NCBI GenBank assembly: GCA_021432635.1
Contig: MU270019.1
Span: 124,001-188,000, forward strand
DNA: 64,000 nucleotides
Source: Thozetella sp. PMI_491
Taxonomy: Eukaryota > Ascomycota > Sordariomycetes > Chaetosphaeriales > Chaetosphaeriaceae
Reading direction: 5' to 3'
Part shown: positions 7,955 through 16,750 of the stretch, piece after piece
How the letters are laid out: each line of letters opens with the position of its first letter
How positions within the stretch are numbered: position 1 is the first letter of the stretch
Program-made: the position numbers and the translations under genes
Notes under the pieces: generated by a model
Databases searched by the model: none
Told to the model about the DNA's origin: nothing
Seen by the model: only the letters and a program-made list of their open reading frames with translations

Positions 7955-8789
7955 GGTCCGAGCCAGGCAGGTCTGGGATGTGGAGTGAGAAATGAACAAT
8001 CCTCTGAGGGTGTTGGCAGTGTGCTGCACAAAGCTGGAGCAGCTCAGGGACAGGTCCTGGTGTATAATCTCAATGTACTCACTATATAATATTTCCACAA
8101 GGTTTCCGAGACCCTCGGCGTTCAGATTCCACGGTAAACGGCAGCAGGGCGTGCCTCTTGCTTCTTAGTAGCGAGTATCCTGGCTGTGTGATAACCTAGA
8201 CGGTTCCCCTGAAGCCCTTTGTCAAATGCGGAGAATAAGCGGACAATCTCAGCGTCTTGATTGGCTAGTATCGCCGAACAATCGCAGTGTGCTTGATAAA
8301 CTCGCGTAGGTGGCCCACCTCGATTCCAGGGCCAGGTGCTGAGCACGAGTCAGGCTCGATAAGCCCTGTTAGTTTCGACGCACCCCAGATTGTTAACTTT
8401 ACCGTGGAGTTGGGCTCTCGAAGGAGCCCTATCCCCTGGGTCCCCCATCACCTCCAACCCCGTCTCATTTCCGCAATCTATCTCCAGCCCGAGGGACGAT
8501 ACCGCTGGTCAGATCTACTCGTATCATCTGGGAAAGAGGCGCGCTAGTCAAGATTTATCGACTAGCTCGAGGCGATAGACATGCTGATATCTCCTATTAC
8601 GTAGGTCTATCAATGTCCGTCCTGACCCGCCAACTCGGGTAAGGTCGGCAAGAGGGGCCGTTGCTTGGGAGGGGCTCGGCGATGATTGCGACCGCATCAA
8701 TCGCCGAAAGTCCTTCCTACAATCCCCCCATCCGCCGACATAGCGTATACCGCGAATTTTGCAGTGGGATCGACTATAAGCAAGGCAAA
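7955..8789. promoter_or_regulatory. Bidirectional promoter, permease and Zn2Cys6 regulator
   Basis: This 835-nt gap separates divergent ATGs and holds no supported gene. It contains exact octamers ATCGCCGA at 8270-8277, TCGGCGAT at 8676-8683 and ATCGCCGA at 8700-8707. The last two face each other as an imperfect inverted repeat. A related CCGCCGA lies at 8732-8738. The same octamer recurs in the promoters at 16.4-16.75 kb and, with one mismatch, at 12.5-12.96 kb. CGG/CCG half-sites are what Zn2Cys6 proteins usually bind, so autoregulation by the adjacent factor is a fair inference. Confidence 0.6.
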
Positions 8790-11087
8790 ATGGCCTACAG
8801 GCATAGAGGCAGCCCGCAGCGGACAGCGTGGTACGTACCTCACCAGTCTAATTGCTTGCGGTCCAACTCGCATACTCATAAACTAGAGCAGCCGAAGGTG
8901 CCACGCTAGAAAGGTAGACAGACAGTCAATCCACGAGTATATCCGTCTCGGTATAGCTTATCGTACCTCGCGATGTACAGGTGAAATGCAACTCGACCTT
9001 CGGGCAGCCGTGCACCGGGTGTCTCGCGGCCGGCGTGGAGTGTGTAGCTCATGAGAAGAGGCGGCGGAATGTAGGGCACCTTAGTGTTTCCTGCCTTTCA
9101 CACAGCGAGTAAAATGTAACTGACCGTGTGCTCCAAAGCGCGGTCCTCCACGAGATCTCTCGGCAGCACTCCCCGGTCTACTGCCAGCGCAGAGATCCGA
9201 GCATATCTCGTCGCAATCGAGCCAAGACGCTGACCATGAGCGTACTGAAGGTTGGGTTGACTCACCTGCAGATATCGTACTCTCTCCCATGGAACCCATT
9301 GTGGAAACTGAGGCGGGGATTCTTGTGGAAGAGGGGGATGAGGTTGGCCAGGCAGCAGCAGCCCTGTCATCTCTGCAGGACTCGGGAGTCCAAAGGCATC
9401 TTGTGGAGATGCTATCGCAAGATGATATCGATCGCCGCGTTATCCAGAAGGGCGTCCGGGTGGTATATGTCGGCCAGGAGTTCAGCAACATCAACTACCT
9501 CATTCGCCATCGCGCTCGAAACGAAGCCGCCCATCACTTTCCTGCCAACCAGATATCGCGTCAATACACCAGCCACCACCTCGACAGAATACCAAAGGAG
9601 GCATTCCACCTTCCACCGTCGACGGTCGTAGACGACCTTTTAGAAAACTACTTTCGACTCGTAAATCCTGGGTTTCCAATCCTGGACCAGGAAGTCTTCA
9701 TGCGCCAGTACCGATCCCGAGACCCGCAAGACCCGCCATCGCTGCTGGTTCTCCAAGCTGTCTTGATGGTCGGCGCCCATGTCTCGCGTGACTACCCAGA
9801 CCGAGACGAGCTTAAGTCTGCCTTCTTTCGGCGTGCCAAAATGCTCTTTGATGCCCGGTTTGAGTGGAACAGGGACGTCATCGTGCAAGCCGCGCTCCTC
9901 TTGACTTGGCACTCGGAGGGCGTAGAAGATGTCGGTGCCAACTCGTACTATTGGATGTCGGTGGCGGTGCGCACTGCGTTCGGTCTGGGCATGCACCGAG
10001 ACTGTGGGCCGAGCACGCTGGTACCGCAAGACCGTCGAATATGGCGAAGGCTATGGTGGATCTTGGTACAATTCGACGTCTTAGTGACGCTTTCCTACGG
10101 TAGACCCCAGGCCATCAACTTGGACGATGCCGACGTGCCACTCCTGACAACACAAGATTTTGACGGCCTGCGAGACAATGTGGACGCCGAGTTCGTCATG
10201 CACCATTCGAGCCTCTGCATTGTCATCTCGAATATGCTACGGGAGGTATTCGGCCTCCGCATCTCATCGGAGCGACGAGCTGCCGCTGTTAGGCAGGCAG
10301 ATCGACAGCTGGCGCATTGGTTGACGAACCTGCCGCCGGATCTCCGTCCAGGGTCGTCGGGCACCCGCGTCAACACGTGGCCCGCTTCACTTCATATCAC
10401 CTATAACAACTTTTTGATACTCCTCCATCGGCCGGCACCTAACCTGGCCACGGCTCGTGCTGTAAAAACAGAAGACATTGGTGAGAGCCTTCTATCTCAC
10501 ACCATGTGCCATCTAAAATCTAACCTTGAGTCGCAGAAATTTGCACCTCCGCTGCTTCTAGTCTTGTCACTCTGTTTGAGACACTATCGCATCGAAACGA
10601 ACTTCGATGCCTAAACGTCTTCGCTGTGAATTCTCTCTTCACCACCTTGATTCAGCTAAGCGCGGAAATGCGCATCAAGAACCCACTCCTCAGTGCCAAT
10701 GCTACGACCAAGTTTGATACAGCCCTTGAAGTCCTCAGGGCGCTGTCAAATTTCTGGCTGAATGCAAGGATACTCCTGCGTCTGTTTGAGGACAGTTCCG
10801 AGCGTCTACAACAAGAACTCCGCATCGGCAAGCACAGGGCGGAGACTCGCCGAAATTCCCACTCTACGCCCGCCGCAGATGCGGCCACAGGCGTTAATAG
10901 CGGCTTCGAATTGGACGAGTGGACTGGCATGGATGACATCACCCTGGCGGATTCGGCGCAGATACCGCTCGAGGGGGCGGGTGGACAGATAGACTGGAAA
11001 TATTTGTACTGGGAGAACTCGGGGTTCAACCCTCTCAGCCCATTTGGGGACCTTGGTCTCTATCAGCTATCGACAAATATGAACTAA
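8790..11087 (+). CDS. Zn2Cys6 fungal-specific transcription factor, cluster regulator candidate
   Basis: The DNA-binding domain is split over three small exons: 8790-8830, a 22-nt micro-exon 8892-8913, and one starting at 8981. Joined they read ACRRCHARKVKC followed by CTGCLAAGVEC, a complete C-x2-C-x6-C-x7-C-x2-C-x6-C binuclear zinc cluster at residues ~14-41. The body runs from about 9250 to 10480 and then 10537-11087. It has the fungal_trans middle homology region (HLPPSTVVDDLLENYF, VAVRTAFGLGMHRD, RRLWWILVQFDVLVTLSYGRP). The join between the exon ending about 9083 and the body is uncertain. Donor GTGTTT at 9084 with acceptor at 9248 or 9271 keeps frame. An acidic C-terminus could be the activation domain. 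It sits between permease and aminotransferase and is the obvious regulator of both neighbours. Confidence 0.85.
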
Positions 11088-11104
11088 TTTCACCTTTACT
11101 TAAC

Positions 11105-12478
11105 CTATGATACGGTCATGATAGCGCTATGTCTCTCCAGAAACTTTCGGACGCATTCCACAAACCGATCGTACTCCTCCTCGGGGGTGCCCAGAATCAG
11201 GGCAATGGAGCCTCTCCTCGTAATCCAATATCCATCCTCCAGCATCTCCATCCAGAAGAGGTCCTTCAGGTCCCATCGCTCTTCGACGTCTTCTGTGCAG
11301 AGGATGTCCCTAACACCAGCATCGGTGAAATGCACGGCCAACATGGCGCCAAGACCTGTGAAGCATAGCTTTGTCCCCTCGCTGATCTCCTGCAGCTTTT
11401 CTCGGAGCTTGTCGCCCCTGGCGTTAAACTCGATGTTGACGTCGTCTGTATATACCTTCGATAGGCCGGCATAGCCGGCATGCATCGTCATTGTGTTGTT
11501 GTTGAAGGTTCCCGAGTGGGAGAGCGACCCGGGCACTCGGGGGTCGTAGACTGCCATAATGTCCGCCCGGCCGCCGAACGCCCCGATAGGGAACCCACCA
11601 CCAAGATACTTCCCGAACGTAGTAATATCCGGATTCAGGCCCAGCACTCTCTGAATACCGCCAGGCGCAACTCGAGAGGTCATGACTTCGTCTAAGATGA
11701 ACACGGCGCCGACCCGTTTCGTCTCTTCTTGGATCGTGTGCAGGAATTCCTTGGTCGCTCGGATACATCCACCGGCACCCTGCATACCCTCAACAAGAAC
11801 AGCAGCGAGGTCAGAGAGGGTTTGGATTAGTGTCTTTGCCGACTCGATGTCGTTGTATTTTCCAATAACCCAATCGTCTCTGTTGACGTTGTTCGGGGCG
11901 ACTTTGCCGTCTCCGAAGGAAAGTACGGCGCCGTGGAATCCACCGCAGAAGACCAGAACTTTATTACGGCCGGTAAACTTCCTGACTCCATTGAGGGCAT
12001 GCAGGTTTGCCTCAGTGCCTGTGTTCGCAAATCGAAGCCGCTCGAGACCGAAGCGAGAGCAAATTAGTTCGGCATGCTTCTGCTCCTGGATGGTGGTTGA
12101 TCCTAAGCTGAGTCCAACGTTGTCAAAGGTCGAGACTATGGCCTCACGTATGACCGGGTGCGAATGGCCGTAAATCCCGGCCGTCAGTTCGCCCACGAAG
12201 TCGGTGTACCTATGTCACTCGGATTAGAGAGCTGCTCCGAGTGGAACTCGAATATTTTTTGCGGCTTACTTGTGGCCATCTTCATCCCATACGAAAGGCC
12301 CCTTTCCGCATTTCATGCTAAGGGGGAACGGTGATGTATGGAGGAGGGTGCGGGTGTTGCCACCAGGTAAGATGCTAGCGGCGATCTCATGTTGCTTCCT
12401 AGATACTGGATTCTGCTCTTCGAATCTCTTTATCGCAGCGTCGACGGCTGCCTTCGCGGCGGCTTCAACGTCACCCAT
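11105..12478 (-). CDS. Class III aminotransferase, glutamate-1-semialdehyde aminomutase-like
   Basis: Exons 12478-12270 and 12209-11105 give 437 residues. It shows the class III (fold type I) layout: R-T-LLHTSPFPLSMKCGKGPFVWDEDG at the N-terminus, FANTGTEANLHAL, then GAVFILDEVMTSR with the PLP-binding Asp. The Schiff-base lysine sits in TTFGKYLGGGFPIGAFGG, and FNNNTMTMHAG follows. Closest familiar relatives are glutamate-1-semialdehyde aminomutases (hemL type). In fungi these proteins usually serve in secondary or catabolic metabolism rather than heme synthesis, because fungi make 5-aminolevulinate by the Shemin route. The substrate is unknown. No targeting peptide is evident. The stop lies 18 nt from the 3' end of the regulator gene, tail to tail, and the start is divergent from the N-demethylase-like gene. 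Confidence 0.88.
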
Positions 12479-12958
12479 GGTAGAGGTATCGGCGGCACCG
12501 GCAGTAGATAAATGTTTTAGGACAGCGAGTGCTACAGTTCTAAGAAGGGCTCGGGACTTTGTCGGGTGCCTGAACCGATGGAATCATGCAACATAAAGTT
12601 GATTGAGCCAGGATGGGAACCTTCTATGATACGTTCCTCTCTATTCATCGTTCGACTGCATCAAACTCTGGAGGGGCCATCGGCGTTGTGACGGCCGCTA
12701 TCTCAACTGCCGCCTCCTGCCTGTCGCCGAGTGTCAACCTCCCTGCATCGGCGTTATGGGCCAATGAGATGCGAGCCGAAATCTGATTTCGGCGCGACCA
12801 AGTAATGGTGGACCCCACGGCGGCTTAGGTCGAGTACGCGCCGAACGCGGTTCCTCGCTAGCCATTCCATGTAACACAGTCGGCGAGTATACAGGTAGTC
12901 GACTCGGCAATCCGTGCCCGGGGCGAGTCACAATTATGGGAACCCAGTTAGCAACACG
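12479..12958. promoter_or_regulatory. Bidirectional promoter, aminotransferase and DUF3445 gene
   Basis: This is a 480-nt shared promoter. It contains GTCGCCGA at 12723-12730 and TCGGCGAG at 12880-12887, each one base from the octamer found exactly in the two flanking bidirectional promoters. It also holds a perfect inverted repeat, GCCGAAAT and ATTTCGGC around a 3-bp spacer at 12775-12793. ATCGGCGT occurs twice more, near 12679 and 12747. No coding frame here is supported. Confidence 0.55.
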
Positions 12959-14231
12959 ATGGCAGCCCAGATCTTGTCCAACATGAGCTCTGAGTTTCAG
13001 AACGGGTGGCCCAGCGCCCTTCTACGTCGACTAGATTCGTCGCTAGCGCCAGAAATTCGCAACGTTGTATTGCTGGGCATCATCTGCTTCGTCGCAGCGA
13101 CTTGGTTGACAAAGTATGCGGTCACACAAGTAGGTGTCCTGCGGCTCTTATCGAAATCTCGAGAACTAATTCGCGACAGAATGGAGGCAAATCCAGGCTG
13201 CCCGACACCAAGCAATTCGACTGTATGGGTACGATCGAGGGACTAGATAAACTCAAATGGGAAGAAGAGAAGCCCGAGCGGATCTACAAGTTTGCCGACA
13301 CCTACCATCTTACTATGGGTGTGTCTAGAAGATATCCAGCCTGGAAAGCAGGATATGACTAACGAGAGGCTCAGGGCTGCGAAAAACGGATATCAACTGG
13401 ATAACACGAGTAGATCAGCAGTACCGCGAGCGAATCGAAGAGCGCAAGAAGATCATCGAGCAGTACCCGGGAGCCTTGGGATACGTGGAATCAGGAGTCG
13501 AGATGCTGAATGAGCTCTATAGCTTCATGTTCACACACTACCTCCCCAAGCGATACCCTACCATGTTCCGCATTGACGCCAAGAGGCAGACGTGCCACAA
13601 CCTTGTATTAGACAAATACGTCCCACTAAGCCCGCCAACCGACCACATCGAGGCGCTGCGCCATATTGCTCTCGCTATAGATGAAGACTTCCTGATGCTT
13701 CTCCCATCTCCGGACGGTGATGGGTACTCGCTCCAGGCCTTTGTGTGGCTGTACCCGGTCGGCTTTGACCCCCAGGCGAAACTCGGGATGAAGCTGCGGG
13801 ACGCACACAAGCCCGTGCCAAGTTACAAGCAGCACCTGCAAATGTCAATGGATCGATATTTTGCCAGACTGACGCCAGGAAACGTAGTCAATCGCGTCAA
13901 CTGGGCCGTCGCGACGAACTCGAGCCTCTGTGAACGCGGCGAGTACCACTTGTACTCAGATGAGCAGGTACCAACGGACACCAAGGTCGATATGAACGAT
14001 ACATGGGTCCGGTGCGAACTTCAAACGCTATTCGGTCTACCCAAATCCGGGGGCAGAATCCTTAGCGTGCACTTGTATCTGTACCCGATCCAGGAAATCA
14101 AGGACGTTGGGCTCGCGGAGGAGATGTGCCGCGCTATTGATGGTTATGGCGCAGGTAATGCGCCTGGGTTCAGCCGTTATAAGCGGATTCCGGTGTGGGG
14201 TGAAGTCGTCAAGAAGTTCCTCAGGAGCTAG
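12959..14231 (+). CDS. Heme-dependent oxidative N-demethylase-like protein (DUF3445)
   Basis: Exons 12959-13113, 13197-13318 and 13375-14231 join in frame to give 377 residues. Residues ~35-52 form a single hydrophobic helix (VVLLGIICFVAATWL), so the protein is probably membrane-anchored like an ER P450. The rest matches the DUF3445 / HODM alpha-subunit-like family: TKQFDCMGTIEGLDKLKW, DTYHLTMG, LPKRYPTMF, FLMLLPSPDGDGYSLQAF and RCELQTLFGLPKSG. Bacterial HODM uses heme and a PAS-type fold to demethylate dimethylamine oxidatively. Fungal members carry the same domain but are uncharacterised. Placed beside an aminotransferase and a flavin monooxygenase, it could remove an N-alkyl group from the cluster substrate. 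That role is inference. Confidence 0.85.
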
Positions 14232-14595
14232 GAGATGATCCTTAGATGCTTGGGCACCGCCCTATCCGGCGAGTATTTACGGGTTTCGTTACCTCTTGAG
14301 CCTAGGTGGTAGAAACGCGACATGGAGCCGGTGAAACTAGAAGCGGGGAGTGAAGCAGAAGGTTGAGATTTGATACCGCATCGAAAACGGAATAGGATAT
14401 GAGGTTACGCATTATTAGAAGGGGTATAGAATGACGAGGTAGATTCGAATCCTGCATGGTTTTCACTGATATGGTTCACGACCCGGCATAGCTAAGCACA
14501 CCTCTAACGAAGGGTCATTGAAAGAATTAAAGGAACTATTTCGCAAACAGATTGTTTGCCTATAAAATCGCATTGATAGTTCTCTGAAGACTACT
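14232..14595. other. Convergent 3' region
   Basis: This lies between the stops of the DUF3445 gene and the monooxygenase. I see no gene. A tRNA-like GATTCGAATCC near 14445 has no matching arms. Confidence 0.5.
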
Positions 14596-16399
14596 TCAAT
14601 ACACCAAGTCGTCGTACTCTTTCTCAGGCGCATCAAAATACCATGTGAGGTCTCTGCCTTCCCCTTCCATGATACTAAATCCATTGCCCAAAAATGCCCA
14701 CCGATTCTTATCACAAGTGTCCCACTCCCAGTCCTCGTATCGAACCTCTTTTAACAAGTGGAACCAGTGCAGCCTGCTCCCCGGGTACAACCCAACTGGC
14801 CCCGTTTCTTGGCCGTTCTTAAACCAGCTTCGGCACTTGCTAGCCCAAGCCATACGCGGTAGAAAAGTATCTGCGTGCTCTAAGAACTCTGAGATGGCAT
14901 CTGGCCGAGGAGTGAACGACTTATAGCGCTGCGTCTGTGTCTTATGGATCATCTTGAGCATGTATTTGGTCAGATGCTCGATGATGGGGATCGCAGACCC
15001 ATGGCCGACAGGAGCGTTGGGTCCCAAGAACACAGAATAGTTAGGCATATCTGCCACCGCGAGGGATAGATAGGCTGTGGGGCGGTCCTTCCATACTTCC
15101 TGGAGGTTGGTGCCGTTTCGGCCCACAATCGGGAATCGAGGCTTGTAGGAAAGATCGAAGCCCGTCGCACAGATGATGGTATCGACCTCTATCAGCTCAC
15201 CAGTCTCGGTTACTAAGCCCTTCGGCTCGACTCGCACGATTTCCTTGCCTGTGATCACATTGACGTTCGGCTGGCTCAATGCTTCGAGGTATCCGTTGCC
15301 AGGCGAAGGACGGCGGCAGCCGACGGCAAAATTAGGGATGATGACATCAAGGAGAGGGCTGTCCTTTCCTAGTCGTCTAGTCATATCCTCGGTGGAAAAT
15401 TTGACCGCCGCCGCCTGTTCAGGCGTCCCTTGATGCAGCATCTTGAATCGGGAAGAGAGTTCGTGCTCGACGCCTTTTCGATATGACAGGTACTCTTCTG
15501 GCTTGGATGCGAACGCTTCTTTCTGATCAGTAGGGAAATCGAAATTTAGGCCACCCGGAGCAGCATATTTGCTGCCGAAACCTGATGTAATCCACTGGAA
15601 GGGAAAGGAGTCAGTCCGAGTCCACAGGAGATGGTCTATGTGGGAGTTCATCGCTTACAGTAGGCCCGCGGATGAACGTAGTCAACGACTTAACCACGGG
15701 CTGGATCGCGGTCACAACTTGAATGCCACTGGATCCGTACCCAATGACTGCCACCGACTTCCCTTCGAGGGTTTTCTCTGGCTTCCAGGAGGCAGAATGT
15801 AGTAAATCGCCTGCAAAGGTATGAAGGCCCTCAATCTGGGGCCACTTCCAGTTGTTCAAATATCCCGAGGCGTTGATAAAGAAGTGGCCGTAGTCTTCAA
15901 AGACCTCGCCAGTATCCAGACGTTCGATTTTGAACCTCCACACCCCGGCATCCTCGTCCCATCGCGCATTGACCACTTTTGTACGAAATTGCACATACTT
16001 GAGTAAGCCATGCTTTTCGGCCGCTCGCTGGAAGTAGTCAAGAATCTCAGGCTGGGGGGAGTAGTAGCTTGTCCAATGCGGGTTCGGCTCCCAGGAGTAT
16101 TGGTAATTGTGACTCGGAATGTCGCAGGCGCATCCGGGGTATCGATTCTCCAGCCAGGTCCCGCCGACGGCGTGATTTTTCTCATAGATCTGGAGGGAGA
16201 CGTTTTTCATGTGCTTCGCCACATTCCTTGCGACATTCAAGCCACTCGCGCCGGCGCCAATGGTGATGATGCGCATCTCCCGGGCCGTCCCCATAGGCTG
16301 CTCGAGGACAGCATATGGCTTCGTCTTGTCGGAATTAGCCAAAGTTGCTGAGGTCGCCATCGCATTCGAGTTGGTCGCCAGATCGCTGTTGATGCCCAT
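14596..16399 (-). CDS. Baeyer-Villiger-type flavin monooxygenase
   Basis: Exons 16399-15659 and 15594-14596 join in phase 0 to give 579 residues. It has the first Rossmann motif GAGASGL (residue ~50) for FAD and GGTWLENRYPGCACDIPSH. The BVMO fingerprint F-x-G-x3-H-x3-W (FAGDLLHSASW) lies near residue 207, with a second Rossmann motif IGYGSSGIQ for NADPH and the ATGF motif (ICATGFDLSYKP). These enzymes insert oxygen next to a carbonyl or oxidise N or S atoms, and the fingerprint favours the Baeyer-Villiger class. A start at 16474 would add 25 residues. 16399 fits the family length better. It is divergent from the DUF1349 gene over a promoter with three exact ATCGCCGA/TCGGCGAT octamers. Confidence 0.92.
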
Positions 16400-16750
16400 G
16401 GTGGAGTATGACTGTCGTCGTGCGACTGTTGCCTCGAGCAGCGAGAGAACGACAACGATAACTTTGGGTCCCAACTTTGTTGTACGTCTTCCAACGGATC
16501 AAAGCCACCTTCAATCGCATCCCGCATCGCCGACGGCGCGAGCCTGAGGCGATAGATGCATCGCCGAGTTGGGCATGTGAGTGTGGAGGGGGGCTACCCC
16601 ATTGGCTGATAACGCCGAGATAGGTCCCGCCGAATGTATTCGGTGCGCTCGCCGGCGGGGGTCGGCGATCCTTTTATTTGACTGCATTCGGGAGCGACGG
16701 TTGGTTCAGGTCAGAAAATATCGAAAAAGAATTTGTCACAAGGAAGAGAT
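16400..16750. promoter_or_regulatory. Bidirectional promoter, monooxygenase and DUF1349 gene
   Basis: This 351-nt divergent promoter carries exact octamers ATCGCCGA at 16526-16533 and 16560-16567 and TCGGCGAT at 16662-16669. It also has the perfect palindrome CCGAATgtATTCGG at 16630-16643. The palindrome resembles the GCCGAAAT/ATTTCGGC repeat in the aminotransferase promoter. Confidence 0.6.

Follow-up and report, generated by a model that had tools for sequence, protein, structure and literature searches.

AWCGCCGA sites at a fixed distance from CCAAT boxes in the divergent promoters of a six-gene cluster of Thozetella sp. PMI_491

Organization of the gene cluster

The 64,000-nucleotide window analysed here (C5:124001-188000) comes from the fungus Thozetella sp. 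PMI_491 and holds a cluster of six genes arranged as three divergent pairs. The genes, spliced manually, encode an amino-acid permease, a Zn2Cys6 regulator, a class-III aminotransferase (transaminase), an enzyme resembling haem-dependent oxidative N-demethylase (HODM), a flavin monooxygenase and a DUF1349 protein. All six have a Pfam match above the cut-off, and the transaminase and N-demethylase-like models match deposited proteins at 100% over the full length. A polyketide or peptide synthase backbone is absent among the six genes. The three promoters share the site AWCGCCGA (W is A or T), and in each of them one site lies exactly 5 bp from the sole CCAAT box. Coordinates are collected in Table 1.

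Sequence motif shared by the three promoters

The promoters measure 1,666 bp together (about 1.7 kb in the original prediction on this window) and contain the core CGCCGA, or TCGGCG on the other strand, 17 times, with five, seven and five copies in promoters 1, 2 and 3. Ten of the 17 have the preferred form AWCGCCGA (four, two and four). The original prediction had singled out the octamer ATCGCCGA/TCGGCGAT as a shared promoter element. An exact-word search of the window finds its six cluster copies at the positions claimed (8270+, 8676-, 8700+, 16526+, 16560+ and 16662-), all within the three promoters. The sole exact copy outside the cluster, also correctly named, is at 51207- and falls in the coding sequence of a HET-domain gene (PF06985; 49440-51320, +); this accounts for 7/7 copies in the window. 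The clustering is real, but the octamer gives a partial view of it. It occurs three times each in promoters 1 and 3, and because promoter 2 has no exact copy, the whole-octamer view was dropped and replaced by the CGCCGA core with an AW prefix. Four copies of AACGCCGA (8115-, 12680-, 12748- and 16611+) had been overlooked. The one-mismatch copies named at 12723 (GTCGCCGA) and 12880 (TCGGCGAG) are present but carry little weight, because the window holds 60 one-mismatch matches (27 + 33), of which they are two. As a word, ATCGCCGA/TCGGCGAT was not found in the literature text searched.

The clustering of the motif in the three promoters is far from chance. The background for this comparison is 122,600 bp, comprising the window beyond the cluster and seven loci fetched for reasons unrelated to the motif, and its rates per kb are 0.75 for CGCCGA, 0.073 for AWCGCCGA and 0.049 for ATCGCCGA. 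Among 5,000 length-matched triplets drawn at random from this background, none reaches 17 copies of CGCCGA (maximum 6) or ten copies of AWCGCCGA (mean 0.12, maximum 2). After correction for word choice, the best 6-mer count (CGCCGA, 17) and the best 7-mer count are reached in 0/2,000 triplets, and the best 8-mer count (6) in 3/2,000. CpG-rich promoter composition (CGG/CCG) combined with chance could draw on the 51% G+C of the window and on the abundance of the octamer in the genome. However, promoter G+C is ordinary (0.54–0.55), and for words of 6, 7 and 8 bases no dinucleotide-preserving shuffle of the promoters attains the maximum observed (0/300 each); we regard this explanation as highly improbable. 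In the assembly searched (72.3 Mb, 157 contigs), the octamer has 3,491 copies on both strands versus 1,838 for the reversed pattern (the pattern read backwards), the type of control also used below. This gives about 3.1 copies per 64 kb, not the two or so that had been expected by chance. The proposed check of octamer frequency elsewhere, run in part, thus finds the word common, and a similarly dense AWCGCCGA array lies in a promoter region on contig C2. For these two reasons the octamer alone is not specific.

AA or AT precedes the core in 10/17 promoter copies versus 3/50 non-promoter copies in the window. These two positions bear on a rival reading, in which the element serves repression instead of activation, as a URS1-type (Ume6-like) site. 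URS1 likewise ends in CGCCGA, and its consensus has GC directly before this hexamer. Yet GC stands there in just 1/17 promoter copies, and the pairing with CCAAT described below favours activation; a repressor site is very unlikely. Recent duplication of the promoters, with the motif as residue, is extremely improbable: promoters 1 and 3 do share small strings of up to 11 bp, but the longest strings common to the promoters are just 8–11 bp, the sequences flanking the 17 core sites have little in common outside positions -2 and -1, and the promoters serve six genes of different families. The original prediction also held that the motif marks the limits of the cluster. This is supported by the distribution of the core on both sides and by the composite described below, which within the window is confined to the cluster. 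To the left, CGCCGA is absent between 1369 and 6987; to the right, none of the cores up to 24000 is in AW form. Elsewhere in the genome, an identical 76-bp stretch with two AWCGCCGA sites occurs at C7:59930-60005 and C7:504696-504771, and is probably part of a repeated element.

Composite of CCAAT box and AWCGCCGA site

Each promoter has one CCAAT box, counted on both strands (8260, 12761 and 16601). Read as ATTGG, all three boxes are followed by five bases and then by AWCGCCGA, in the same orientation each time. The pattern ATTGG-N5-AWCGCCGA has three matches in the window, all in the cluster promoters, and 0 in 100 window shuffles. One shared geometry in all three promoters arises in 6/2,000,000 simulations, in which the numbers of sites and boxes are kept, positions and strands are random and any spacing of 0–20 is allowed. 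CCAAT was not counted blind: the title of Steidl 1999 on the CCAAT factor was already known and prompted the count. GATA and plain CGG words were counted in the promoters alongside CCAAT.

Genome-wide, ATTGG-N0-20-AWCGCCGA gives 95 pairs versus 46 for the reversed control, with N5 in five. Three of the five are the cluster promoters; the other two (C32 and C104) are inside long open frames and were not taken as targets. The looser ATTGG-N7-CGCCGA has 42 matches versus 21 for its control. CCAAT-N0-20-AWCGCCGA occurs 124 times in the genome, with no match inside the cluster among the first 100 of 124, C5 included, and AWCGCCGA-N0-20-ATTGG occurs 98 times, also with no match inside the cluster. 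AWCGCCGA followed by CCAAT, an arrangement searched in the window, is not found there within 40 bp. The spaced composite is therefore specific. It is a sharp genome-wide predictor, with five matches in 72 Mb and three of them in these promoters; the octamer alone provides no such predictor. A CCAAT-binding subunit gene (PF02045) is present in the genome. The original prediction saw in the repeated octamer a sign of one regulator. Its Zn2Cys6 candidate stands, being intact and of a plausible family, but given the fixed CCAAT spacing the single regulator becomes two putative partners, an AmdR-like factor and the CCAAT-binding complex. Overall, the observation made in that prediction is confirmed and its interpretation is partly supported.

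Table 1. Genes, promoters and composite sites of the cluster (window coordinates)
Feature	Position	Strand	Evidence or detail
Amino-acid permease gene (PF00324), 2 exons, 563 aa	6192..7954	-	gene model, Pfam
Promoter 1 (permease/regulator), 835 bp	7955..8789		CGCCGA core at 8115-, 8272+, 8676-, 8702+, 8733+
Composite 1, ATTGG-CTAGT-ATCGCCGA	8260-8277	+	305 bp from permease ATG, 512 bp from regulator ATG
AmdR-like Zn2Cys6 regulator gene, 5 exons, 663 aa	8790..11087	+	gene model, Pfam, homologues, tree
Regulator exons	8790-8830, 8892-8913, 8981-9070, 9193-10480, 10537-11087	+	open frame, GT-AG introns
Class-III aminotransferase gene, beta-phenylalanine aminotransferase type, 437 aa	11105..12478	-	gene model, PDB 4ao9
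Promoter 2 (transaminase/N-demethylase-like), 480 bp	12479..12958		CGCCGA core at 12489-, 12680-, 12725+, 12748-, 12789-, 12839+, 12880-
Composite 2, ATTGG-CCCAT-AACGCCGA	12748-12765	-	269 bp from transaminase ATG, 193 bp from N-demethylase-like ATG
Haem-dependent oxidative N-demethylase-like gene (PF11927), 388 aa	12959..14231	+	gene model, Pfam, PDB
Flavin monooxygenase gene, Baeyer-Villiger type, 2 exons, 579 aa	14596..16399	-	gene model, Pfam, PDB
Promoter 3 (monooxygenase/DUF1349), 351 bp	16400..16750		CGCCGA core at 16528+, 16562+, 16613+, 16628+, 16662-
Composite 3, ATTGG-CTGAT-AACGCCGA	16601-16618	+	201 bp from monooxygenase ATG, 132 bp from DUF1349 ATG
DUF1349 gene (PF07081), 221 aa	16751..17416	+	gene model, Pfam

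The Zn2Cys6 regulator

The regulator has a Zn_clus domain (PF00172, 34.4 bits, cut-off 21) and a Fungal_trans domain (PF04082, 110.4 bits, cut-off 23). Its zinc cluster (8790-9070) is spread over three short exons, separated by introns 8831-8891 and 8914-8980. The possibility of a pseudogene without the first two cysteines was removed by splicing two tiny exons; because these restore a complete zinc cluster, the gene is not a pseudogene on present evidence. Homologues were compared as the best 120 of 1,801 for the transaminase, the best 120 of 236 for the regulator and 94 of 94 for the N-demethylase. Many of the 120 regulator homologues are named acetamidase regulatory protein or AmdR, and several are without Zn_clus in precomputed annotation, where gene callers perhaps overlooked the short exons. 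None of the 120 is identical to our model, so the public regulator model may differ. The relatives presumably represent several classes of filamentous fungi, the classes being assigned from species names. The CHxRKV(K/R)C stretch of the zinc cluster is common to the regulator and the AmdR-named proteins of Aspergillus unguis and A. falconensis. A quick tree was made with 44 rows, including 41 picked from these homologues; in it the regulator falls in an 18-row clade (SH-aLRT 100) and Aspergillus AmdR in a separate 18-row clade (95). It is therefore called AmdR-like and not AmdR.

The regulator has paralogues on C12, C49 and C111. In the tree, the one on C12 belongs to a third group, and the branch of the C49 paralogue is too long for it to be placed. 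The C12 paralogue (L003/L026) is divergent to a frame that, as judged by eye, resembles TauD/TfdA dioxygenases, and its locus may be a sister module that serves a different nitrogen source. AWCGCCGA sites in the 10 kb surrounding each of the three paralogues number 2, 2 and 0, respectively, with no array, which would fit an alternative in which an unlinked Zn2Cys6 (or other) regulator reads the cluster sites together with the array on C2, and the regulator gene of the cluster is just a target. The C2 array (C2:160420-161128; L015:6421-7129) lies upstream of an MFS transporter gene, packs six AWCGCCGA sites into about 700 bp and adjoins other Zn2Cys6 genes. The search with AmdR-like segments finds no AmdR-like gene on C2, and fission yeast Mca1 is another Zn2Cys6 factor that reads TCGGCG. 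A seventh AWCGCCGA at this locus precedes a tannase/feruloyl esterase gene. However, C2 pairs CCAAT and site in the opposite geometry, and just once at 5 bp, while the repeated fixed-spacing composite is confined to the cluster, beside an AmdR-family gene. The genome has 36 direct pairs of AWCGCCGA within 60 bp (17 for the reversed control), of which three fall in the cluster and two belong to the C2 array; site arrays were ranked across the genome by such direct pairs alone. We judge an unlinked regulator unlikely, though it is the alternative to be taken most seriously, and the C2 array is probably a separate regulon.

Enzymes and predicted pathway

The best solved relatives of the transaminase are beta-phenylalanine and beta-transaminases, with scores of 391 (4ao9, 391.5), 370 and 369 bits; the next is at 205. 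The likeness to 4ao9 spans nearly the whole length. Residues R43 and E77 match the carboxylate-binding Arg and the supporting Glu, given as R41 and E75 of VpAT in a passage of PMC9850050. Both are kept in 27/27 closest proteins (own included). Among 120 aligned transaminases, the Arg is found in 110 (10 gaps) and the Glu in 113 (5 gaps, 2 Asp). The ring-contacting V43 and Y76 of VpAT are Leu at both positions here, and among the 27 closest proteins Leu takes the Y76 position in 27 and the V43 position in 25. Because the ring-contacting positions are Leu, the substrate may be non-aromatic; a passage of PMC10589169 describes the VpAT-type motif as serving non-aromatic substrates as well. A beta-amino acid is the likely substrate, and an aromatic one is less certain.

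The N-demethylase-like protein matches PF11927, the HODM alpha-subunit domain, with 265 bits over profile positions 1–273 of 273, and PDB entry 5lte with an E-value of 3.6e-12. This suggests an N-methylated or other amine as its substrate. Formaldehyde would be released by N-demethylation. A gene with a GFA domain (formaldehyde-activating-enzyme-like, PF04828; 5556-6104, +) adjoins the cluster just beyond its edge, within the stretch that is free of CGCCGA. The N-demethylase paralogue loci on C82, C62 and C20 have 1, 2 and 0 AWCGCCGA sites and no array (paralogues on C5, C88 and C23 were left out). The PDB matches of the monooxygenase include cyclohexanone and phenylacetone monooxygenases. According to a passage of PMC6150868, a beta-keto acid decarboxylates to acetophenone, for which a Baeyer-Villiger monooxygenase is discussed. 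Among the papers listed for the enzyme combination of the cluster, none has the term 'oxidative N-demethylase'. The role of the cluster is probably beta-amino-acid catabolism, with the substrate class suggested by the enzyme families.

Occurrence in other fungi

The linkage comparison covers the transaminase, the regulator and the N-demethylase and leaves out the permease, the monooxygenase and DUF1349. Among the matches listed, homologues of all three are on contigs of equal size in at least five other genomes (Xylariales sp. PMI_506, Xylariales sp. AK1849, Stylonectria norvegica, Geosmithia morbida and Mollisia scopiformis); same-contig placement is judged from equal contig size, which for long contigs is no proof of adjacency. 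The S. norvegica contig measures 19.8 kb, and its locus tags are consecutive (g8998, g8999, g9000). In Capronia coronata, Cosmosporella sp. VM-42, Sporothrix thermara and S. bragantina, the tags of regulator and N-demethylase follow each other directly or lie close together. Many transaminase homologues among the best 120 of 1,801 have no listed partner. The Mollisia regulator falls in the AmdR-side clade of the tree; the linked regulator is therefore not of one clade everywhere.

Proposed regulation of the cluster

We consider it likely, from the sites and the gene families, that the cluster's own Zn2Cys6 activator and the CCAAT-binding complex drive all six genes through the AWCGCCGA sites. 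A(A/T)CGCCGA, with its core TCGGCG, would be the putative binding site of the activator encoded at 8790-11087, a member of the AmdR/IntA superfamily. Because one site lies exactly 5 bp from the sole CCAAT box in each promoter, the activator and the CCAAT-binding complex probably bind side by side, and would act together at these fixed composites. Further single sites may raise occupancy. One inducer, presumably the pathway substrate or product, would switch on the whole set. Its targets would be uptake (the permease), the regulator itself (autoregulation) and the remaining four genes, which encode enzymes or an accessory protein. The pathway may start with amine demethylation or oxidation by the HODM-like enzyme. 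In the next step a beta-amino acid would be transaminated to a beta-keto acid; this would lose CO2 to give a ketone, which a Baeyer-Villiger oxidation would turn into an ester. A bolder version, which we put forward only tentatively and hold to be doubtful, is that an AmdR paralogue kept a rigid ATTGG-N5-AWCGCCGA code with the CCAAT-binding complex and was rewired from GABA/acetamide to an undescribed N-methyl-beta-amino-acid pathway with N-demethylation, transamination and a Baeyer-Villiger step that opens the ketone; yew-type N,N-dimethyl-beta-phenylalanine would then be one conceivable substrate class.

Several points weigh against control by an AmdR-like activator with a CCAAT partner. The CCAAT spacing was spotted post hoc, among four word classes counted. 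Promoter 2 has AACGCCGA in place of the exact octamer, and to the right of the cluster cores resume from 18267 (18267, 18328, 18576, 19396, 20531 onward). A dense array upstream of an MFS transporter gene exists on C2. The composite was not found at three GABA-transaminase-like loci, three of 20 matches listed, each with about 1.5 kb of flank (L036 and L037 above the family cut-off, L038 below). The regulator is outside the AmdR-proper clade, in a sister clade, and AmdR is poorly conserved among filamentous ascomycetes according to a survey passage in PMC3998117. The TCGGCG core alone does not name a regulator family, because Mca1, of another kind, reads it as well. The likeness to AmdR/IntA is one of family and CCAAT adjacency; the sequence of the AmdR footprint site (amdS/gatA) was not found in literature passages on AmdR. 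The fixed-spacing composite makes an anonymous six-gene stretch into a regulon that can be tested, for which a regulator and its partner can be named as candidates and the substrates narrowed to a short list.

Comparison with known systems

In clusters of the type found by CASSIS, a motif common to the promoters of contiguous genes marks the borders. The promoter motif here marks cluster borders in the same way. However, the marker is two-part with a fixed 5-bp spacing, and the six genes include no synthase backbone.

Fission yeast Mca1, a Zn2Cys6 factor, binds TCGGCG in vitro and occupies the mfc1 promoter in vivo, as described in passages of PMC6080790. The hexamer is identical to the core of the cluster sites. 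The Mca1 target differs in that TCGGCG stands there as two direct copies at a distance of 13 bp, and in its context, copper starvation in meiosis, and these passages (PMC6080790) mention no CCAAT partner, whereas the cluster has many variably spaced copies, one per promoter tied to CCAAT.

Bacterial beta-phenylalanine catabolism (Variovorax/Paraburkholderia) is similar in its 4ao9-related transaminase with the Arg and Glu pair and in a Baeyer-Villiger-type monooxygenase nearby. The present cluster is fungal, adds a haem N-demethylase-like enzyme and a permease, and has Leu in place of the ring contacts V43 and Y76.

The system closest to the proposed regulation is AmdR/IntA with the CCAAT-binding complex AnCF at amdS of A. 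nidulans. The AmdR binding sequence is said to be adjacent to that of the CCAAT factor there (van Heeswijck and Hynes 1991), and AnCF is reportedly needed for AmdR action (Steidl 1999). The likeness is a predicted AmdR-family Zn2Cys6 activator and a site beside a CCAAT box in 3/3 promoters. The genes under AmdR/IntA control in A. nidulans include, according to a passage of PMC8016842, those for acetamide, omega-amino acids (transaminase and permease) and lactams. The regulator here differs in that it belongs to a sister clade, lies inside the cluster and would govern another set of enzymes. The cluster may offer a natural experiment in which an AmdR-type regulator was re-targeted between nitrogen pathways and its CCAAT partner kept.

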